A model generated the notes under the pieces. That model was not told the origin of the DNA, searched no databases, and saw only the letters and a list, made by a program, of their open reading frames with translations. A program made the position numbers and the translations under genes. Positions 50,599-60,321 of a stretch of 64,000 nt of DNA are shown one piece after another; within the stretch, counting starts at the first letter, position 1, and the number at the start of each line of letters is the position of its first letter. The DNA is from Sideroxydans sp. (GTDB lineage Bacteria > Pseudomonadota > Gammaproteobacteria > Burkholderiales > Gallionellaceae): assembly GCA_027310665.1 (NCBI GenBank), contig DAIDAJ010000021.1, positions 36,900-100,899 of the forward strand, read 5' to 3'.

Positions 50599-53500
50599 TC
50601 AGGCCGGAGCGACGTTCCGGAGAGCGAGCAGTTCGGTCAATTTTTCCTCCAGTTCGTCGACAGGCTTGGGCCGGGCAAAGAGATATCCCTGATAAGCCTG
50701 GCATCCGCGCAATTCCAGGAACTCATGCTGCTCTTCGGTCTCCACTCCTTCGGCGATCACTTCCATGCCCATGCTGAGTGCCATGGAAATGATGGTTTGC
50801 ACGATCGCCGCGTCATGCTGGTCGGTCGTGATGTCGCGCACAAACGACTGGTCGATCTTGAGCTGATCGATGGGCAGGCGGCTCAGGTAGGATAACGACG
50901 AATATCCCGTGCCGAAGTCATCCATGGAGAACTTCACTCCCAGGTTCTTCAACTCCTTCATCTTGCGTATGCTGTCGTCGATATTGTCCAGCACCAGGCT
51001 TTCCGTCAGTTCCAGTTTCAGTAATTCAGGCCTGATGCCGCTCTGTCTCAATACGGCTGACACCCTGGAGACGAACTCGCCTTCGCGGAATTGAATCGGG
51101 CTGACGTTCACGGCGATGCTGAGGCGGTTGAATCGGGGGGAGGATTGCCAGCGGGCCAGCTGCGCACATGCCGTCTCGAGTACCCACAGGCCGATGGGCA
51201 GGATCAATCCCGATTCTTCTGCCACCGGGATGAATTGCGCGGGTGAGACGGTACCGAGCTGGGAGTGTGTCCAACGCAGGAGCGCTTCCACGCCGACAGG
51301 TCGCCCGGAGCTTGCGATCTGCAACTGGTAATGAAGGGAGAATTCATTGCGTTCGAGCGCACCGCGCAATGCACTTTCCATCTGGCCGCGTTTTTCCAGA
51401 ATCTCCTGCATGGATGAATCGAAGAAGCAGATGGCATTGCGTCCCTTGGCCTTGGCCTGGTACATCGCGGTGTCCACATGCGCCAGCAACTTGTCGTGGT
51501 TGTCGGTATGGCCTAGAAACAGCACGATCCCGATACTGGAACTGGAATGGTGATCGGTTTTATCAAGTTGATAGGGTTTGCTCAATTCGCTGCGGATCTT
51601 TTCGGCAACCAGTTCGGCTTGTATCGCCGCTTCATTCTGAACGCTGCTCAAGCCGTTCAGGATCACCAGGAATTCATCGCCTCCCATTCTGGCTACGGTA
51701 TCCTCTTCGCGCACGGAGGCGGTCAGGCGTTTGGCCACCTCGATCAGGAGTTTGTCGCCCATGTTGTGGCCAAAGGTGTCGTTCAGGCGTTTGAACTGGT
51801 CCATATCCAGCGATAACAGCGCGCCATGCCGTCCGCTGCGCGCGCTGGATGAGAGCGCCTGACGGAAGCGGTCTGAGAATAGCCGACGGTTCGGCAGACT
51901 GGTGAGTGCATCGAAGTTGGCCTGTTCCCAGATAAGTTCGTCTTTGCGTTTCTTTTCCGTGATATCGGAAAACTGTCCCACATATCTGAAGATGCTGCCA
52001 TCGGCATGACGGATGACGCTGATACTGAGCCACTTGGCGTAAAGCTCGCCACCTTTTTTGATGTCCCATACCTCGCCCTGCCAGTGTCCCTCGTCCAGGA
52101 TAGCCTGCCACATCTGCTGGTAGAACTGGGTGTCGTGTTTGCCGGACTGGAAAATGTTCGGGTTCTTGCCCCGGACTTCGTCCAGCGAGTAACCGGTGAT
52201 TCGGGTAAAGGCCGGATTGACGTCCAGGATCAGATTGTTCTCGTCGGTCACCAGGATGCCGTCGTTGCTGGACTGGTAAACCGAGGATGCGAGTTTTAAC
52301 GCTTCGTCTTTCTGTTTCCTTTCGGAGATGTCCTCGAAGACCACGACTGCACCTTCCAGTTTGCCCTGGAGAAAAATGGGATGGGAGGAATAGTCCACCG
52401 GGAGACTGCTGCCGTCCTTGCGCCATAACACTTCATCGATGCCCGTGCGGTGCCTGCTGTCGGCCAGGGTGGCATGCATCGGGCACCGTGCAGACGGATA
52501 GTGCGAGCCGTCCGCGTAGGAGTGATGTATGGTTTCGTGCATGGGCTTGCCGATCAGCTCTTCTGGCGCGTAGCCGAGCATATTTGCCGCCGCGAGATTG
52601 ACGAAGGTGGTGTTGCCATCCTTGTCCAGACCCCAGATGCCGTTGCTGACCGAACCCAGCAGCAATCGCAAACGATGCTCGCTCGTTTCAATCGCAGACT
52701 TGGTCTGCCTGGCAGAACGGAAATAAAAAATGAGCGTAGCCGCGGCCAGTATCGCCGCGCTTCCCAGCAGCCAGATCAGGAGGAAATTACTCCTCCGCTC
52801 GCGCTCGATCAGCAGCAAACCGGGCAGATCGACTTTTGAATAAACCCTCAATCCGAACTCTTCCAGATCGGTCGTGGCCAGCACGTAAGGCGATGTCTCG
52901 ATCCCGACTTGCTTCAACCGGCTGTCAGGCGAGCCATTCCAGCGGGTGATCCTGAGTTCGGGGAACTCGGTTCTGAGATAGAGAGCGCTCTTTTCCTGGG
53001 CGCCCATCGCGTTTACTTTGGCGCCTGGGACAGACTTCATCAGCAGCGCGGGGTCATGCGCAAGAATGATGACGCCATTGGCATCGGTCACGAAAGCGTC
53101 GGCCTGGCGGATCAGGAAGGACAGCGCGGGAATGTCTACCTTGGAGACGATGGCACCATCAAACAGGCCGTCCAGCACGATCGGCGCGGAGAAAAAGAGT
53201 CCGGGGACATGGGTGGTCCTGCCCATGGCATATTGCATGCCGTGACGTCCGTTGCGGGCATCGGCAAACCACTGCCGGTCTGCGAAGTTCGTGCCGATCG
53301 GCGTGTCAGGCATGTCCTCGATACTGGCTGCGATGCAATCTCCCGCGGCGTTGACCACATAGATCAAATCGATCCCCAGGGAATCCCGGATCAACTTGAG
53401 CTGGACGTTCAAATCTTTCAATGTCGGATCGCCAGTCCAGCGTTTGACCAGGGCTTCCTTGGGCAATCTGCTTGGCAGCCCATTCGGGCCGAATTTCCAT

Positions 53501-53820
53501 ACTGAATTCAAAACGCGAAGTCCTAGCCGGAAAGTGCCTGAAACGCCCGCGACAAAGTGCAAGTTGCGCCGGAAGCTGTCGGCCATATCCGATGAAATGG
53601 ATTGAGCGTGACTCTGTTCCTTTTCGATCAGGGACTCGTACTCGTGATTGAAATTCAGCCGGGAGATATGCCAGGCCAGCATGGCCCACAGGATCAACAT
53701 CGGGACCAGCCAATAGACGATATGGCGTTCCTTTCCGTTCTTGGTTTGCAACATCGATCTCCGGTGTTTGGGTGTACTGTGACGCTGTACTGCAATTGAC
53801 AGGTTGCAACGGGACCTCAA
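50599..53820 (-). CDS. Membrane PAS-GGDEF-EAL signalling protein with periplasmic sensor domain
   Basis: 1073 aa (probable start at 53754, MLQTKNGKERH); two TM helices, PAS x2, MGGDEFLVIL, EALLRWTHSQLG, DDFGTGYSSLSYLSRLPIDQLKIDQSFV. Confidence 0.95.
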   Translation of the reverse strand: MRSRCNLSIAVQRHSTPKHRRSMLQTKNGKERHIVYWLVPMLILWAMLAWHISRLNFNHEYESLIEKEQSHAQSISSDMADSFRRNLHFVAGVSGTFRLGLRVLNSVWKFGPNGLPSRLPKEALVKRWTGDPTLKDLNVQLKLIRDSLGIDLIYVVNAAGDCIAASIEDMPDTPIGTNFADRQWFADARNGRHGMQYAMGRTTHVPGLFFSAPIVLDGLFDGAIVSKVDIPALSFLIRQADAFVTDANGVIILAHDPALLMKSVPGAKVNAMGAQEKSALYLRTEFPELRITRWNGSPDSRLKQVGIETSPYVLATTDLEEFGLRVYSKVDLPGLLLIERERRSNFLLIWLLGSAAILAAATLIFYFRSARQTKSAIETSEHRLRLLLGSVSNGIWGLDKDGNTTFVNLAAANMLGYAPEELIGKPMHETIHHSYADGSHYPSARCPMHATLADSRHRTGIDEVLWRKDGSSLPVDYSSHPIFLQGKLEGAVVVFEDISERKQKDEALKLASSVYQSSNDGILVTDENNLILDVNPAFTRITGYSLDEVRGKNPNIFQSGKHDTQFYQQMWQAILDEGHWQGEVWDIKKGGELYAKWLSISVIRHADGSIFRYVGQFSDITEKKRKDELIWEQANFDALTSLPNRRLFSDRFRQALSSSARSGRHGALLSLDMDQFKRLNDTFGHNMGDKLLIEVAKRLTASVREEDTVARMGGDEFLVILNGLSSVQNEAAIQAELVAEKIRSELSKPYQLDKTDHHSSSSIGIVLFLGHTDNHDKLLAHVDTAMYQAKAKGRNAICFFDSSMQEILEKRGQMESALRGALERNEFSLHYQLQIASSGRPVGVEALLRWTHSQLGTVSPAQFIPVAEESGLILPIGLWVLETACAQLARWQSSPRFNRLSIAVNVSPIQFREGEFVSRVSAVLRQSGIRPELLKLELTESLVLDNIDDSIRKMKELKNLGVKFSMDDFGTGYSSLSYLSRLPIDQLKIDQSFVRDITTDQHDAAIVQTIISMALSMGMEVIAEGVETEEQHEFLELRGCQAYQGYLFARPKPVDELEEKLTELLALRNVAPA

Positions 53821-53984: not shown

Positions 53985-54674
53985 GTGATGCTTGATAACG
54001 ACATAAAATCCCTGCTGCTGCAATATCCCATGCTGCGCGAGCTGGATGCAGCAGATCGGTCAGCGCTGCTTGCAACAGCGAGCGTGCTGCATCTCTCCGC
54101 CGGGACGATTGTATTTGACGAACGTCAGCCCTGCCAAGGTTTTCCGATGCTGCTATCCGGCAGCATCCGCATCATCAAGTCCTCGGCAAACGGACGCGAA
54201 CTGCATTTGTATCGGGTGTTTCCGGGTGACAGTTGCATCCTCAGCAGCAGTTGTCTGCTCGGGCGTTCGGATTACCATGCGCGCGGAATTACCGAGTCGA
54301 ATACCGTCATTGTTGCGATCTCCCCCGTCATGTTTGAAAGACTGCTGTCGATACACAAGCCGTTCCAGGATTACATCTTCGGCATGTTTTCCGAGCGTCT
54401 CAACGACCTGATGCACTTGCTGTCCGCTGTCGCCTTTCAGAAACTGGACCAGCGACTCGCGGCCCTTCTGGCCAACAAATCCAGTCCTCTTTACACTACC
54501 CATCAGGCACTGGCTGACGAGCTTGGCAGTGTGCGCGTGATAGTCAGTCGTTTGCTGAAGAGTTTTGCCGAACAAGGCTGGATCAGGCTGGGACGGGAGT
54601 ATATCGAGATAGTCGACGTGGGATCTTTAAGCAAATTCAGCTCTCTCTCCAGCGAGTCTGAATATCATTCGTAA
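53985..54674 (+). CDS. Crp/Fnr-family regulator
   Basis: 229 aa; cNMP-binding fold and C-terminal HTH (TTHQALADELGSVRVIVSRLLKSFAEQGWIRLGREYIEI). Confidence 0.92.
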   Translation: MMLDNDIKSLLLQYPMLRELDAADRSALLATASVLHLSAGTIVFDERQPCQGFPMLLSGSIRIIKSSANGRELHLYRVFPGDSCILSSSCLLGRSDYHARGITESNTVIVAISPVMFERLLSIHKPFQDYIFGMFSERLNDLMHLLSAVAFQKLDQRLAALLANKSSPLYTTHQALADELGSVRVIVSRLLKSFAEQGWIRLGREYIEIVDVGSLSKFSSLSSESEYHS

Positions 54675-54933: not shown

Positions 54934-55335
54934 GACCATCACCCCGCCTTAACCTAGCATCCCGCTCAAGTATTGCGAGCGGTTGCAAGTTCGGTTTTGA
55001 TCTCATGGCCCTTCCGGTGCGGTAAGACTTGGAAGATTAAGTGGCTGTATCTCGCCATCAATATCGAATTTCCGGAATGAGATCTGCTCTGCAGGCAAGT
55101 CGAACAAATGTCCCTTGGGCGCGATTCTGTTTCAGGTTCCGCAATCCAGCGGTTCCGGGCTTGCGTTCACGACCCGTGGGCAAAGGGCCAAGTGGCGGCG
55201 TTCAGTCGTCAGTTGTGCCCAGGTATGTGGAGGATGGTCGCCTGGACTTCCCGACAGCGGATCGGTGTGGCGAGGTTCAGGTGCTTCTCTTGAGGATCGT
55301 GTAACACCTGTGTGTTTAAAAAGAAGGGGAGAGAA

Positions 55336-57375
55336 ATGACGGGGAGATTTAAACCGATAATATTTAATACAGGCATGCTGCTGTGCGTTACCCTGATGAG
55401 TCCGGCATTTGCCGCGCCGTCAGGCGCGCAGGCGGATGAGCAAGTCAGGCGCGGGGAATACCTGGCCCATCTTGGTGATTGCATCGCCTGTCACACCGCA
55501 AAGGATGGCAAGTCCATGGCTGGCGGAATGGAATTCAAGACGCCATTCGGTATCGTTCATTCCACCAATATCACGCCCGATGTCAAAACCGGGATCGGCG
55601 GTTATTCTTTTGACCAGTTCGATCGCGCCATGCGCACGGGCGTCGCCGGAGACGGCCACAATCTTTACCCGGCGATGCCGTATCCCTCGTTTGCCAAGAT
55701 CAGCGCGGACGACATGAAGGCCCTGTATGCCTATGTGATGCACGGGGTCGAGCCGGTCAGCCAGCCGAACAAGGAAAACAGCATGCAATGGCCGTTCAGC
55801 ATGCGGTTCGGGTTGAAATTCTGGAACATGGCATTTCTCGACGATACGCCGTTCAAGCCGGATGCCGCGAAGTCGTCGCAATGGAATCGCGGCGCCTATC
55901 TGGTTCAGGGACTTGGGCATTGCGGCTCCTGCCATACGCCGCGCGGGTTTGGAATGCAGGAGAAAGCCATGAGCCAGGATGGCGAAGACGGAAAGGACTT
56001 TCTCACCGGATCCACCATTGAAGCCTGGCATGCAGTCAACCTGCACAATCAATGGGCAGCGCCCGAGATCGCCGAGTTCCTCAAGGTTGGTCACAACAGT
56101 CATGCAACGGCTTACGGGACCATGACGGAGGTCGTGCATTTCAGTACCCAGCATTTCAGCGATGGCGATCTCCTTGCAATCGGCGAATACCTGAGTTCGC
56201 TGCCGCCCAACGCGGAATCCGAAGTGATCAAGCCGAAGCCGGTCTCGCAAGCCCGGGAGAGCGACCTGTACAAGACACGCGGCGGTTTGGGGTACGTGCA
56301 ATTCTGCTCGACCTGTCACCAGGACGATGGCCGGGGAATGGACAAGCTCTTTCCTCCGCTGGCAAACAATTCGTCGGTTCAGTCCAGAAACCCAGCCTCG
56401 GTCATCCATGTGGTTTTAAGCGGGTGGAAGTCGGCTGAAACAGAGCAGGCCAAGCGCGCGTTCGATATGCCCGGCTACAACAGCCTGTCCGACCAGGAGC
56501 TCGCCGAGATCATCACGTTCGTGCGCAGCCAATGGGGCAATCAAGGGGAGGCGGTCAGCGCGGAGGACATAAAGAAAGTCCGCGACGAGATCGGGATCAA
56601 ACCGGCGGAGCCGTCCAGGTTCGCAGTGCCGCGCTATGCAGCGATGCTGTCCAGTCCGAATGCGGACCAGCTGGTGTACGGCATGCGACTGATGACGGAA
56701 ACCAAAGCGCTCTTGCCGAAGAATGTGGGAGATGTCCTGGTTTGCAACAGCTGCCACCTGAATGGCGGCACCATGGAGCATGCTGCGCCTTATGTCGGCA
56801 TTTCCGCTTTGTTCCCGTCCTATGCGCCGCGTGCCGGAAAGATCATCGATTTCAAGGACAGGGTCAACGGCTGCTTGAGACGGTCAATGAACGGCAAGCC
56901 GCTGGACAAGGACTCGAAGGAAATGCTTGCCATGATCTCCTACATGGACAACATGAAAGGGAATTTCAAAGAGGGTGAATCCATTCCGGGCCGCGGGGTG
57001 GGCAAGATGGACAAATCGATCGTCCCGAACGCGGAAAACGGCAAGAAGGTCTACAAGGACCAGTGTGCGGTATGCCACGGCGACAAGGGCGAGGGAATGA
57101 AACAGGCGGACGGCAGGTACGTGTTTCCGCCGCTCTGGGGCAGCCAGTCTTTCAACATCGGCGCAGGCATCGCCAAAACCTATACCGCCGCAGCCTTCGT
57201 CAAGAACAACATGCCGATCGCCAACACCAGGAAGTTTCCGCTGGGGCAGGGTGGCCTGACCGACCAGGAAGCGGTCGACGTCGCGCAATATTTCACGCAC
57301 ATGCCGCGCCCGGATTTCGTGGACAAGCGCAAGGATTGGCCAAAAGGCGGCAAGCCGACGGACGCCCGGTATTGA
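55336..57375 (+). CDS. Pentaheme cytochrome c: AdhB-like cytochrome module fused to TsdA-like thiosulfate dehydrogenase module
   Basis: CIACH, CGSCH, CSTCH then CNSCH (LVYGMRLMTETKALLPKNVGDVLVCNSCHLNGG), DRVNGCLRRSMNGKPL and CAVCH; signal peptide. Confidence 0.88.
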   Translation: MTGRFKPIIFNTGMLLCVTLMSPAFAAPSGAQADEQVRRGEYLAHLGDCIACHTAKDGKSMAGGMEFKTPFGIVHSTNITPDVKTGIGGYSFDQFDRAMRTGVAGDGHNLYPAMPYPSFAKISADDMKALYAYVMHGVEPVSQPNKENSMQWPFSMRFGLKFWNMAFLDDTPFKPDAAKSSQWNRGAYLVQGLGHCGSCHTPRGFGMQEKAMSQDGEDGKDFLTGSTIEAWHAVNLHNQWAAPEIAEFLKVGHNSHATAYGTMTEVVHFSTQHFSDGDLLAIGEYLSSLPPNAESEVIKPKPVSQARESDLYKTRGGLGYVQFCSTCHQDDGRGMDKLFPPLANNSSVQSRNPASVIHVVLSGWKSAETEQAKRAFDMPGYNSLSDQELAEIITFVRSQWGNQGEAVSAEDIKKVRDEIGIKPAEPSRFAVPRYAAMLSSPNADQLVYGMRLMTETKALLPKNVGDVLVCNSCHLNGGTMEHAAPYVGISALFPSYAPRAGKIIDFKDRVNGCLRRSMNGKPLDKDSKEMLAMISYMDNMKGNFKEGESIPGRGVGKMDKSIVPNAENGKKVYKDQCAVCHGDKGEGMKQADGRYVFPPLWGSQSFNIGAGIAKTYTAAAFVKNNMPIANTRKFPLGQGGLTDQEAVDVAQYFTHMPRPDFVDKRKDWPKGGKPTDARY

Positions 57376-57420: not shown

Positions 57421-58455
57421 ATGATTTCAGTTGATGCAATTTCTAAGGCAACAGATTCATTTCGTCGCAGGGCAATCGCGTCGTCCCTGGCGGCGATTGC
57501 GGTGGGGGTGCTGGCTCAATTCGCATGCGGCGTGACGCCCGCTTATGCGGCCGACCAGGATCTCGGGGTATATCCGCCCTGGAGTCATGGCGAGAACAAT
57601 CCGGCCGAATCCAGGGGGCTGGAATTTACGGTGCCCGAAGTCGACAACCTGCCCGACTTCCACGGCAACCCGATCAATCCCCGGCTGTCGATCTTCGTTG
57701 GTGGCAATTATTTCTTTGCCATGGCTCCGCTGGTCCACGCGTTCGAGAAGAAGCATCCCGAACTCAAGGGCAAGATCTACTACGAAACCATCCCTCCCGG
57801 CCTGCTCGCCGAGCAGATCAAGCAGGGCGGCACCATTACCGTGGGGAACATGACCTGGGTCGTCCGTGCCGATGTGTATGCCGCCGGGCTGAGAAGGATC
57901 GAAAGCACGATCAAGGAAGGCCAGGCGGTGGGCCCCGCGATTCCCTATGCGACGAATACGCTCACCATCATGGTGCCCAAGGGTAATCCGGCCAGGATAG
58001 CCAGCCTCAGCGACCTGGGCAAACCCGGTGTGCGCCTGGTCATGCCGAATCCCGCATTCGAGGGTATCGGCCGCCAGATCAAGAACAGCCTCGCCAAGGC
58101 CGGTGGCGAAGAGCTGGTGCGCGCCGTGTATGAGACCAAGGTCAAGAACGGCGAGACCCTGCTGACCCATATCCACCATCGCCAGTCCCCGCTCTACCTG
58201 ATGCAGGGCAAGGCGGATGCGGGCGTCACCTGGCAGTCGGAGGCGATCTTCCAGGAGCAGGCGGGGAATCCGATCGGCCACGTTGCCATTCCGGACGACC
58301 AGAATGCGACCGGCATCTACGCCGCGGCGATGGTCAAGGGAGCACCGCATCGCGCCGAAGGCAGGAAATGGATCGAATTCCTGAAGTCGCCGGAAGCACA
58401 AGAGATCTTCCGCCGTTTCGGATTCAAGTCGTATCAGGGCGAGACACCGAAATAG
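57421..58455 (+). CDS. Periplasmic substrate-binding protein (type II PBP, ModA/sulfate-binding-like)
   Basis: 344 aa with signal; FVGGNYFFAMAPLVHAFEKKHPELKGKIYYETIPPGLLAEQIKQGG ... NPARIASLSDLGKPGVRLVMPNPAFEGIGRQI ... GKADAGVTWQSEA. Confidence 0.8.
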   Translation: MISVDAISKATDSFRRRAIASSLAAIAVGVLAQFACGVTPAYAADQDLGVYPPWSHGENNPAESRGLEFTVPEVDNLPDFHGNPINPRLSIFVGGNYFFAMAPLVHAFEKKHPELKGKIYYETIPPGLLAEQIKQGGTITVGNMTWVVRADVYAAGLRRIESTIKEGQAVGPAIPYATNTLTIMVPKGNPARIASLSDLGKPGVRLVMPNPAFEGIGRQIKNSLAKAGGEELVRAVYETKVKNGETLLTHIHHRQSPLYLMQGKADAGVTWQSEAIFQEQAGNPIGHVAIPDDQNATGIYAAAMVKGAPHRAEGRKWIEFLKSPEAQEIFRRFGFKSYQGETPK

Positions 58456-58560: not shown

Positions 58561-59103
58561 ATGCAAGTTCATAACCATCTGGCACTGACACTGATCACAT
58601 CCGCCTTGACCCTGCTGGCGGTCCCGTCCGCATTCGCTGCCGATGCCATGCCCGCCGCGTCAGCACCGGCTGCAGCAGCGGTCGTTGAAGCCAAATCAAG
58701 CGAATACGTAAAGCCGAACATCAAGCATGGCTCGTATGGCAAGTTGAATATCGTTGTGCCCCTGACCTCTGACGACAAGGGTATCCAGGGGATGAAGCTG
58801 CGCAATATTGCGAACGGCCTCAAGGCGGTCGAGTCCTGGAAGGGCAAGATGAATGTGACCGTGGTGCTCTATGCCAAGGGCGTCACCCTGCTCAAGAACC
58901 CGGATGAGCAGACTCAGAAAAAGCTCGATGAACTGAGGAAGCAAGGCGTTCAAATCAAGGTCTGCGACAACACATTGCGTGAACAGGGCATCGATTTCCA
59001 CAACCTTTACCACGTCGTTGACGCCGATATCGTTCCGTCCGGATTTGCCGAGGTGGCGTATTTGCAGGCCCAGAAGCACTTTGTCGTCGATCCGGTCAAT
59101 TGA
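58561..59103 (+). CDS. Periplasmic DsrE/DsrF-like protein
   Basis: 180 aa with signal; LNIVVPLTSDDKGIQGMKLRNIANGLKAVESWKGKMNVTVVLYAKGVTLLKNPDEQTQKKLDELRKQGVQIKVCDNTLREQGID; Cys at the typical DsrE position. Confidence 0.82.
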   Translation: MQVHNHLALTLITSALTLLAVPSAFAADAMPAASAPAAAAVVEAKSSEYVKPNIKHGSYGKLNIVVPLTSDDKGIQGMKLRNIANGLKAVESWKGKMNVTVVLYAKGVTLLKNPDEQTQKKLDELRKQGVQIKVCDNTLREQGIDFHNLYHVVDADIVPSGFAEVAYLQAQKHFVVDPVN

Positions 59104-59271
59104 GCTGAAGCGGCAACCGGCAAGCGTTATGGCTGTTGATCCGGCATGGTGAAGTATTAACACCGTGCCGGATCAATAGTAATACCCAGGAGGTGGGACA
59201 CCAGGTGCGGTGCAGGCTGTCACTTGGTCAATTGCTGCAGGGATGATGTGTTTTTACATGAGGGGGAGAAC

Positions 59272-60321
59272 ATGGAAACCTTGATGTTGGGATTCATATT
59301 TGGAGCGATTTTGCAGTATGCGCGATTGAACCGGTTCGACACGATAGCCGGTATGGCCGTGCTGCGAAACTTCACGATCGCCAAGACGATCTCGTTTACC
59401 ATCGGCTTGGGAGCGCTCTTGCTGCAAGCGGAGATCTATTTCGGGTGGGCCGACTACCATATCAAGCCCTTGCTCCTGGCCGGTGTGCTGATGGGCGGAT
59501 TGTTGTTCGGCGTGGGCATGGCCATTCTCGGCTACTGTCCCGGCACGGTCGTCATTTCGCTGGGCCAGGGAAACCTGGATGCACTGCCCGGGATCGTCGG
59601 CGGCGTCTGTGGCTCCCTGGTGTTTGCCATCGCGTATCCCTCTCTGACACCGCTACTCGGTTCGAATCTTGGCTTGCTTTCTGTCCATAGCCTGCTGCCG
59701 GACAATACCGCTTTCTGGATTGCGGCCACCGCATTGGCGATTCTGTTCATGGGGATCGCACTGCTGTTGCATCGATTGCAAAATCAAGGGTGGCGTTGGC
59801 TGCATGCCGCGATCGGCCTGGCATTGCTCAACATGCTGCTTGCGTTGCCTTCCGTTGCGGGCCATCCCATGGGAGCGTCGACTGCCTTTTCCTTTGCGGG
59901 CATGTCGCTGACCGGTCTGGGCGATGAATCCTACTGGACGAAGATCGCCGGGCCGGGCGCATGGGAAGCGTGGTTCCTGACAGGCGCCTTTCTGGCGGGA
60001 CTTGCGTTTTCCCTGTACCAGCGGACTTTCCGCATTACCAACGTGCCTGCGTTATGGGTGCGCTACTACGGCCCCAACCCGGCCAAGCGGTTTTCCTGGG
60101 CGTTCATCGGTGGCTTTCTGCTCCTCTTCGGTGCGCGCATGGCGGGTGGCTGTACGTCCGGTCATATCATTTCCGGAGGGATGCAGCTTGCCCTCAGCAG
60201 CCTGTTATTCGCCGTCGTCGTGTTCGTCGCATTCCTGGCAACGGGGCGGATTTTCTATCGCTCGCGAGGGATGGTTTCGGCCTTGTCCTCGTCGCGATCG
60301 CTTGCGATCAACGAGACGTAA
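59272..60321 (+). CDS. YeeE/YedE-family (sulfur-compound) transporter
   Basis: 350 aa polytopic; GVGMAILGYCPGTVVISLGQGNLDALPGIVGGVCGS and GARMAGGCTSGHIISGGMQLALSS. Confidence 0.93.
   Translation: METLMLGFIFGAILQYARLNRFDTIAGMAVLRNFTIAKTISFTIGLGALLLQAEIYFGWADYHIKPLLLAGVLMGGLLFGVGMAILGYCPGTVVISLGQGNLDALPGIVGGVCGSLVFAIAYPSLTPLLGSNLGLLSVHSLLPDNTAFWIAATALAILFMGIALLLHRLQNQGWRWLHAAIGLALLNMLLALPSVAGHPMGASTAFSFAGMSLTGLGDESYWTKIAGPGAWEAWFLTGAFLAGLAFSLYQRTFRITNVPALWVRYYGPNPAKRFSWAFIGGFLLLFGARMAGGCTSGHIISGGMQLALSSLLFAVVVFVAFLATGRIFYRSRGMVSALSSSRSLAINET

Follow-up and report, generated by a model that had tools for sequence, protein, structure and literature searches.

Analysis of the reading frame at positions 55336–57375 (+) of the window, the 64,000-nucleotide stretch of a Sideroxydans contig studied here, reveals a pentaheme c-type cytochrome of 679 residues in which an AdhB-type triheme cytochrome is fused to a TsdA module. 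The identities of both modules and their fusion are near certain, and the protein is a real and conserved variant, apparently undescribed, of a sulfur enzyme already known; no description of the AdhB-TsdA architecture was found in open-licence papers. It is best explained as a periplasmic thiosulfate dehydrogenase with its electron partner built in, in principle bifunctional with tetrathionate reductase, a reading to which we assign a probability of roughly 60%.

Two cytochrome modules in one reading frame

The frame starts with the ATG at 55336 (an in-frame GTG at 55312 is a possible alternative start) and runs to 57375 uninterrupted by a stop or a frameshift. The five CXXCH motifs that the earlier note had placed in a single open reading frame are indeed all found in it (residues 49, 196, 324, 470, and 577), as are all the peptides quoted there. 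Five motifs in one 679-residue frame, whose halves match solved structures (E-values of 5e-106 and 1e-48), are not a product of chance, and 75 intact five-heme relatives rule out both chance and an assembly artefact. Residues 1–26 (55336–55413, +) form a hydrophobic stretch that we read from the sequence as a probable Sec signal peptide. The N-terminus is variable in the alignment of relatives and of low confidence in the AlphaFold2 model, which was built from 56 fusion sequences, without hemes, and has a mean pLDDT of 76 and a pTM of 0.79.

The AdhB/FdhC-type triheme module extends over residues 27–419 approximately (55414–56592, +). Profile searches align residues 16–417 with 8gy2_B, the cytochrome c subunit of a quinone alcohol dehydrogenase (E 5.4e-106), and the same half with 8hdd_B of the glucose dehydrogenase β subunit (E 3.5e-96) and 7w2j_C of fructose dehydrogenase (E 1.5e-78). 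In the fold search, this half of the model gives TM-scores of 0.80 to 8gy2_B (by target length) and 0.82 to 8jej_C. The first three hemes had been proposed to be of the AdhB/gluconate-dehydrogenase type, and both searches bear this out, the closest proteins being the ADH/GDH/FDH triheme subunits. The heme sites are CIACH (55480–55494, +), which is invariant in the 56-sequence alignment, CGSCH (55921–55935, +) and CSTCH (56305–56319, +), the latter two defined in the same alignment, and their candidate distal ligands are M114 (55675–55677), M263 (56122–56124) and M378 (56467–56469), respectively. Each of these methionines stands opposite a methionine of 8gy2_B, M114 within YPAMPYP, and is invariant in the 56 fusion proteins; the alignment is consistent with their being the ligands of three His/Met hemes. 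Like AdhB, FdhC and the glucose dehydrogenase β subunit (8gy2_B, 7w2j_C, 8hdd_B), the fusion thus has three CXXCH hemes with matching methionine candidates, and the whole module can be aligned, whereas TsdA takes the place of the C-terminal stretch and no dehydrogenase gene was found nearby. The match to 8gy2_B ends at residue 435 of 478, so that its C-terminal 43 residues or so are absent from the fusion; residues 436–478, which we take to be the membrane anchor of AdhB, have no counterpart, and TsdA follows instead. TsdB was considered as an identity for this half and rejected, since the profile search aligns the TsdBA fusion 5lo9 with the TsdA half only.

The TsdA module (residues ~432–679; 56629–57372, +) matches TsdA of Allochromatium vinosum in profile searches (4wqc, E 1.1e-48; 4v2k, E 7e-48), belongs to the Pfam family SoxA-TsdA_cyt-c and gives TM-scores of 0.81–0.83 to the A. 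vinosum structures, 0.83 being the highest. The Marichromatium TsdBA structure 5lo9 is matched over its TsdA half (E 2e-31); compared over the whole length, the model and 5lo9 agree poorly (TM 0.39 and 0.53, rmsd 10, 22% identity). The earlier note had described the last two hemes as TsdA/SoxA-like. Profile searches assign the C-terminal half to TsdA and to no other cytochrome family, in agreement with the fold, and SoxA was discarded at 33.9 bits against an NCBIfam cut-off of 110.

The active-site heme of this module is bound at CNSCH (56743–56757, +), of which H474 corresponds to AvTsdA His80 in the alignment (PMC4423706). C513 (56872–56874, +), the cysteine singled out earlier from the peptide DRVNGC as a candidate heme ligand, aligns with AvTsdA Cys123 and CjTsdA Cys138, which makes it a candidate both for the axial ligand of the heme and for the carrier of the S-thiosulfonate; in AvTsdA, Cys123 ligates the heme iron and becomes conjugated with thiosulfate (PMC4423706). 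The alignment and the fold match, which bear on this only indirectly, gave no sign that the cysteine would be out of reach of a heme iron. R499, R509 and S517 align with AvTsdA Arg109, Arg119 and Ser127, and Lys614 occupies the position of the partly conserved Arg224. The second TsdA heme site is CAVCH (57064–57078, +), with H581 equivalent to His191, and its methionine ligand (Met236 in AvTsdA) is M626, preceded by N625 (57208–57213, +). An asparagine is also present at this position in the Campylobacter jejuni enzyme, in which the methionine is the heme 2 ligand in the oxidised state (PMC5146829), whereas AvTsdA has a lysine, which switches with the methionine at heme 2. H474, R499, R509, C513, S517, H581 and M626 are invariant throughout the 56-row alignment of fusion proteins. 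The fusion shares with A. vinosum and C. jejuni TsdA the diheme fold, the predicted cysteine ligation of the active heme, the Arg109/Arg119/Ser127 set and the heme 2 methionine, whereas its TsdA lies in a separate branch, together with that of AdhB-TsdA gene pairs. The fusion very probably carries out thiosulfate/tetrathionate chemistry.

Gene neighbourhood and host genome

In the window, the fusion lies in a cluster of genes on the same strand, with a Crp/Fnr-family regulator upstream of the cluster (53985–54674, +). A ModA/CysP-like periplasmic substrate-binding protein (SBP_bac_11; 57421–58455, +) begins 45 bp downstream and is followed by a DsrE-family protein (58561–59103, +), a YeeE/TsuA-like sulfur transporter (Sulf_transp; 59269–60321, +) and a small monoheme cytochrome c (60425–60781, +), a possible electron acceptor. 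In 15 fusion loci, the window counted, the fusion has the binding protein as a neighbour; thiosulfate and tetrathionate are candidate ligands of this protein, which has the N-terminal motif YPPWSHG.NNP and also occurs in an alphaproteobacterial MAG (L083). The fusion cluster is separated from the genes leftward of it by a gene for a 1073-residue protein (50599–53820, −), in which sensor, PAS, GGDEF and EAL parts were recognised by eye.

The ORF-based neighbour surveys, in which antisense ORFs blurred the picture, were complemented by tblastn. In 10 of the 66 loci tested, the fusion adjoins genes of the TtrS/TtrR type, which encode a histidine kinase with a PhnD domain and a FixJ-type regulator, and on plasmids of Thioclava, Ideonella and Rhizobium the fusion and the TtrS/TtrR-like genes all have the same orientation. 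This resembles Vibrio parahaemolyticus, where a tetrathionate-type two-component system is likewise associated with tsd genes, TsdB/TsdA being under the control of TtrRS (PMC11293645). No such system was seen in the window, where the regulator of the cluster is of the Crp/Fnr type; no ttrBCA reductase was found in the annotated plasmid stretches (loci with the TtrS/TtrR-like pair: L034, L078, L080, L174, L175, and L176); and a scan of loci for the TtrR box (GTGG-N4-CCAC) revealed none upstream of the fusion, the matches near the start being heme-motif coding sequence. In four loci, from a Rhodocyclales bacterium, Azospira, Zoogloea and a proteobacterium (L045, L046, L048, and L086), a canonical diheme TsdB-like cytochrome and then TsdA come after the fusion, which hints at different tasks for two tsd enzymes.

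The genome to which the window belongs is 92.6% complete. It contains dsrA and a cbb3 oxidase subunit (ccoO); a search for SoxB gave no match, and no TsdA other than the fusion was found. For SoxB and TsdA, the picture is no different in two single-contig complete genomes of the same genus (G123 and G154): both carry the fusion as the only TsdA found, and neither gave a match to SoxB; other carriers in the family also have SoxB (e.g., G014, G046–G050, without G045, and G146). Thiosulfate growth has been reported for Sideroxydans CL21, for which dsrAB is mentioned, and no sox or tsdA (PMC12442390), and thiosulfate use for Sideroxyarcus emersonii, according to a title cited in PMC10734462. By gene content, no gene found here in the host other than the fusion could initiate the oxidation of thiosulfate. 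Among the candidates for the thiosulfate-oxidising step in Gallionellaceae that lack both SoxB and a canonical TsdA, as the host does, the fusion ranks first.

Direction and partners of the proposed electron transfer

The fusion of the two modules suggests a built-in electron relay, and its combination with the oxidative direction is somewhat favoured. Thiosulfate would bind at the heme ligated by His474 and Cys513, a Cys-S-thiosulfonate would be formed on C513, and a second thiosulfate would resolve it to give tetrathionate. The electrons would pass to the His581/Met626 heme and then, without leaving the polypeptide, to the triheme module of AdhB type. This module would stand in place of the separate acceptor TsdB, and the electrons would leave it through a periplasmic cytochrome c for the cbb3 oxidase. 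The three-heme wire would take electrons off quickly, a benefit also suggested for the Marichromatium fusion (PMC6879331). The latter enzyme, MpTsdBA, is the precedent for a TsdA fused to its acceptor (PMC6879331, PMC5146829). Both proteins consist of a multiheme cytochrome acceptor at the N-terminus and TsdA at the C-terminus, whereas the N-terminal part of Marichromatium purpuratum TsdBA (5lo9) is a diheme TsdB and that of the present fusion a triheme AdhB-type module. The fusion thus represents a second way to give TsdA a built-in electron acceptor and a re-use of the AdhB cytochrome outside alcohol and sugar dehydrogenases. In the four loci where a canonical TsdB-TsdA pair is also present, it may have another role.

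The thiosulfate/tetrathionate couple has a potential of +198 mV (PMC9562282); at this value, cytochrome c and the cbb3 oxidase are more plausible recipients of the electrons than ubiquinone. The same value would make electron flow from ubiquinol to tetrathionate downhill, and it is one of several points in favour of a protein that is mainly a tetrathionate reductase, whose AdhB-type module is fed by quinol or a periplasmic cytochrome and passes the electrons to TsdA. TsdA enzymes run both ways, and the asparagine that replaces the AvTsdA lysine before the heme 2 methionine is found in the tetrathionate-reducing C. jejuni enzyme; both points speak against the oxidative reading. The TtrS/TtrR-like genes adjoining the fusion, co-oriented with it on three plasmids, would also fit a reductase. 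However, TtrRS of V. parahaemolyticus activates tsdBA, which oxidises thiosulfate (PMC11293645), so that the sensor does not fix the direction and its presence beside relatives is compatible with either. Moreover, the C-terminal AdhB stretch, presumably the membrane anchor, is absent, and both dsrA and a subunit of the cbb3 oxidase are encoded in the host genome. We regard a predominantly reductive function as rather unlikely.

AdhB-type subunits normally deal with ubiquinone, and this habit, which also favours a reductase fed by quinol, raises the question of whether the fusion could be a thiosulfate:ubiquinone oxidoreductase in which the AdhB module reduces ubiquinone as it does in alcohol dehydrogenase. 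Its family identity is in line with such a role; the thiosulfate/tetrathionate couple lies above ubiquinone, so that the step would be uphill, and the C-terminal 43 or so residues of 8gy2_B (478 residues) are missing, and we consider this function improbable. The module might also have kept its old trade within a five-heme hub, in which tetrathionate reduction would draw on electrons supplied by quinol or by a dehydrogenase for sugars or alcohols; this is a speculative arrangement with little probability, which, if true, would link organic oxidation and sulfur respiration in one molecule. A related arrangement, in which a dehydrogenase dependent on PQQ or flavin still binds to the AdhB half as a separate protein and alcohol or sugar oxidation is coupled to tetrathionate reduction, appears very improbable. 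AdhB-family subunits are dehydrogenase partners, and another contig of the window's genome does encode a PQQ alcohol dehydrogenase (TIGR03075 family), but no cognate dehydrogenase gene was seen in the window cluster, and none recurs in the listed clusters of fusion neighbours, as far as the rough ORF calling of that survey goes. The periplasmic thiosulfate dehydrogenase with an internal electron partner remains the reading that we prefer.

Distribution and origin of the fusion

Five-heme ORFs of the fusion type number 75 and occur in Alpha-, Beta- and Gammaproteobacteria; 73 of them were parsed as five-heme proteins and two (L045 and L083) were seen as open five-heme frames. The spacing between hemes 3 and 4 is 145–149 residues in the 73 parsed proteins, which indicates that the junction itself is conserved. 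Within the family of the host, the fusion is present over most of its length in 15 of 158 genomes, the window's own counted, with 58–100% identity. A scan of a genome collection yielded 61 further full-length loci, a few of whose records are the same contigs as in the host-family genomes, from sources including Pseudomonas, Ralstonia, Janthinobacterium, Massilia, Rhodoferax, Azospira, Xanthobacter, Rhodopseudomonas, Roseovarius and Methylobacter. In an even sample of the phylum, at least 5 of 399 genomes (again with that of the window) carry it, a lower bound because few candidates were scored per genome. Nine plasmid records contain the fusion over at least 80% of its length, and in the four inspected the annotation reads only 'c-type cytochrome' or 'cytochrome C'; with such generic names, surveys for TsdA plus TsdB or for Sox may miss it. 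On plasmid pMOL30 of Cupriavidus metallidurans CH34 (L173), which is typed as conjugative, the fusion adjoins a tyrosine recombinase gene and a merT-family gene.

Trees were calculated for each half with a sample of 29 fused copies, which form one group in both (support of 94 for the TsdA half and 100 for the AdhB half). An unfused pair occurs in two genomes, G251 (L115/L142, G251:C83) and G231 (L114/L146, G231:C102), where a tsdA gene comes immediately after an adhB-like triheme gene and encodes an N-terminal membrane or lipoprotein-type signal of its own. The TsdA proteins of these pairs have a tail resembling KDWP..PKDARY of the fusion and group with the fused TsdA modules with a support of 100. 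A quick tree of the AdhB half groups the pair AdhBs with other members of the family and sets the fused copies next to a Thiomonas AdhB; a single clade of fused and pair AdhBs is not rejected (p-AU 0.149), so that one or two recruitments are both possible. The simplest history is that a gene pair was fused once and later spread across classes.

Two loci from the genus of the host (L017 and L018) encode a stand-alone TsdA with the fusion-like tail KDWP.G.KPKDARY, and no adhB-like gene lies in the stretch covered. Tetraheme TsdB-TsdA-like fusions of the Marichromatium type were observed in the family of the host (L019, genome G102) and in another family of the phylum (L132 and L133). Finally, in L159 and L161 an AdhB-type cytochrome domain ends a much longer open frame (1011–1237 residues), which may represent another AdhB fusion.
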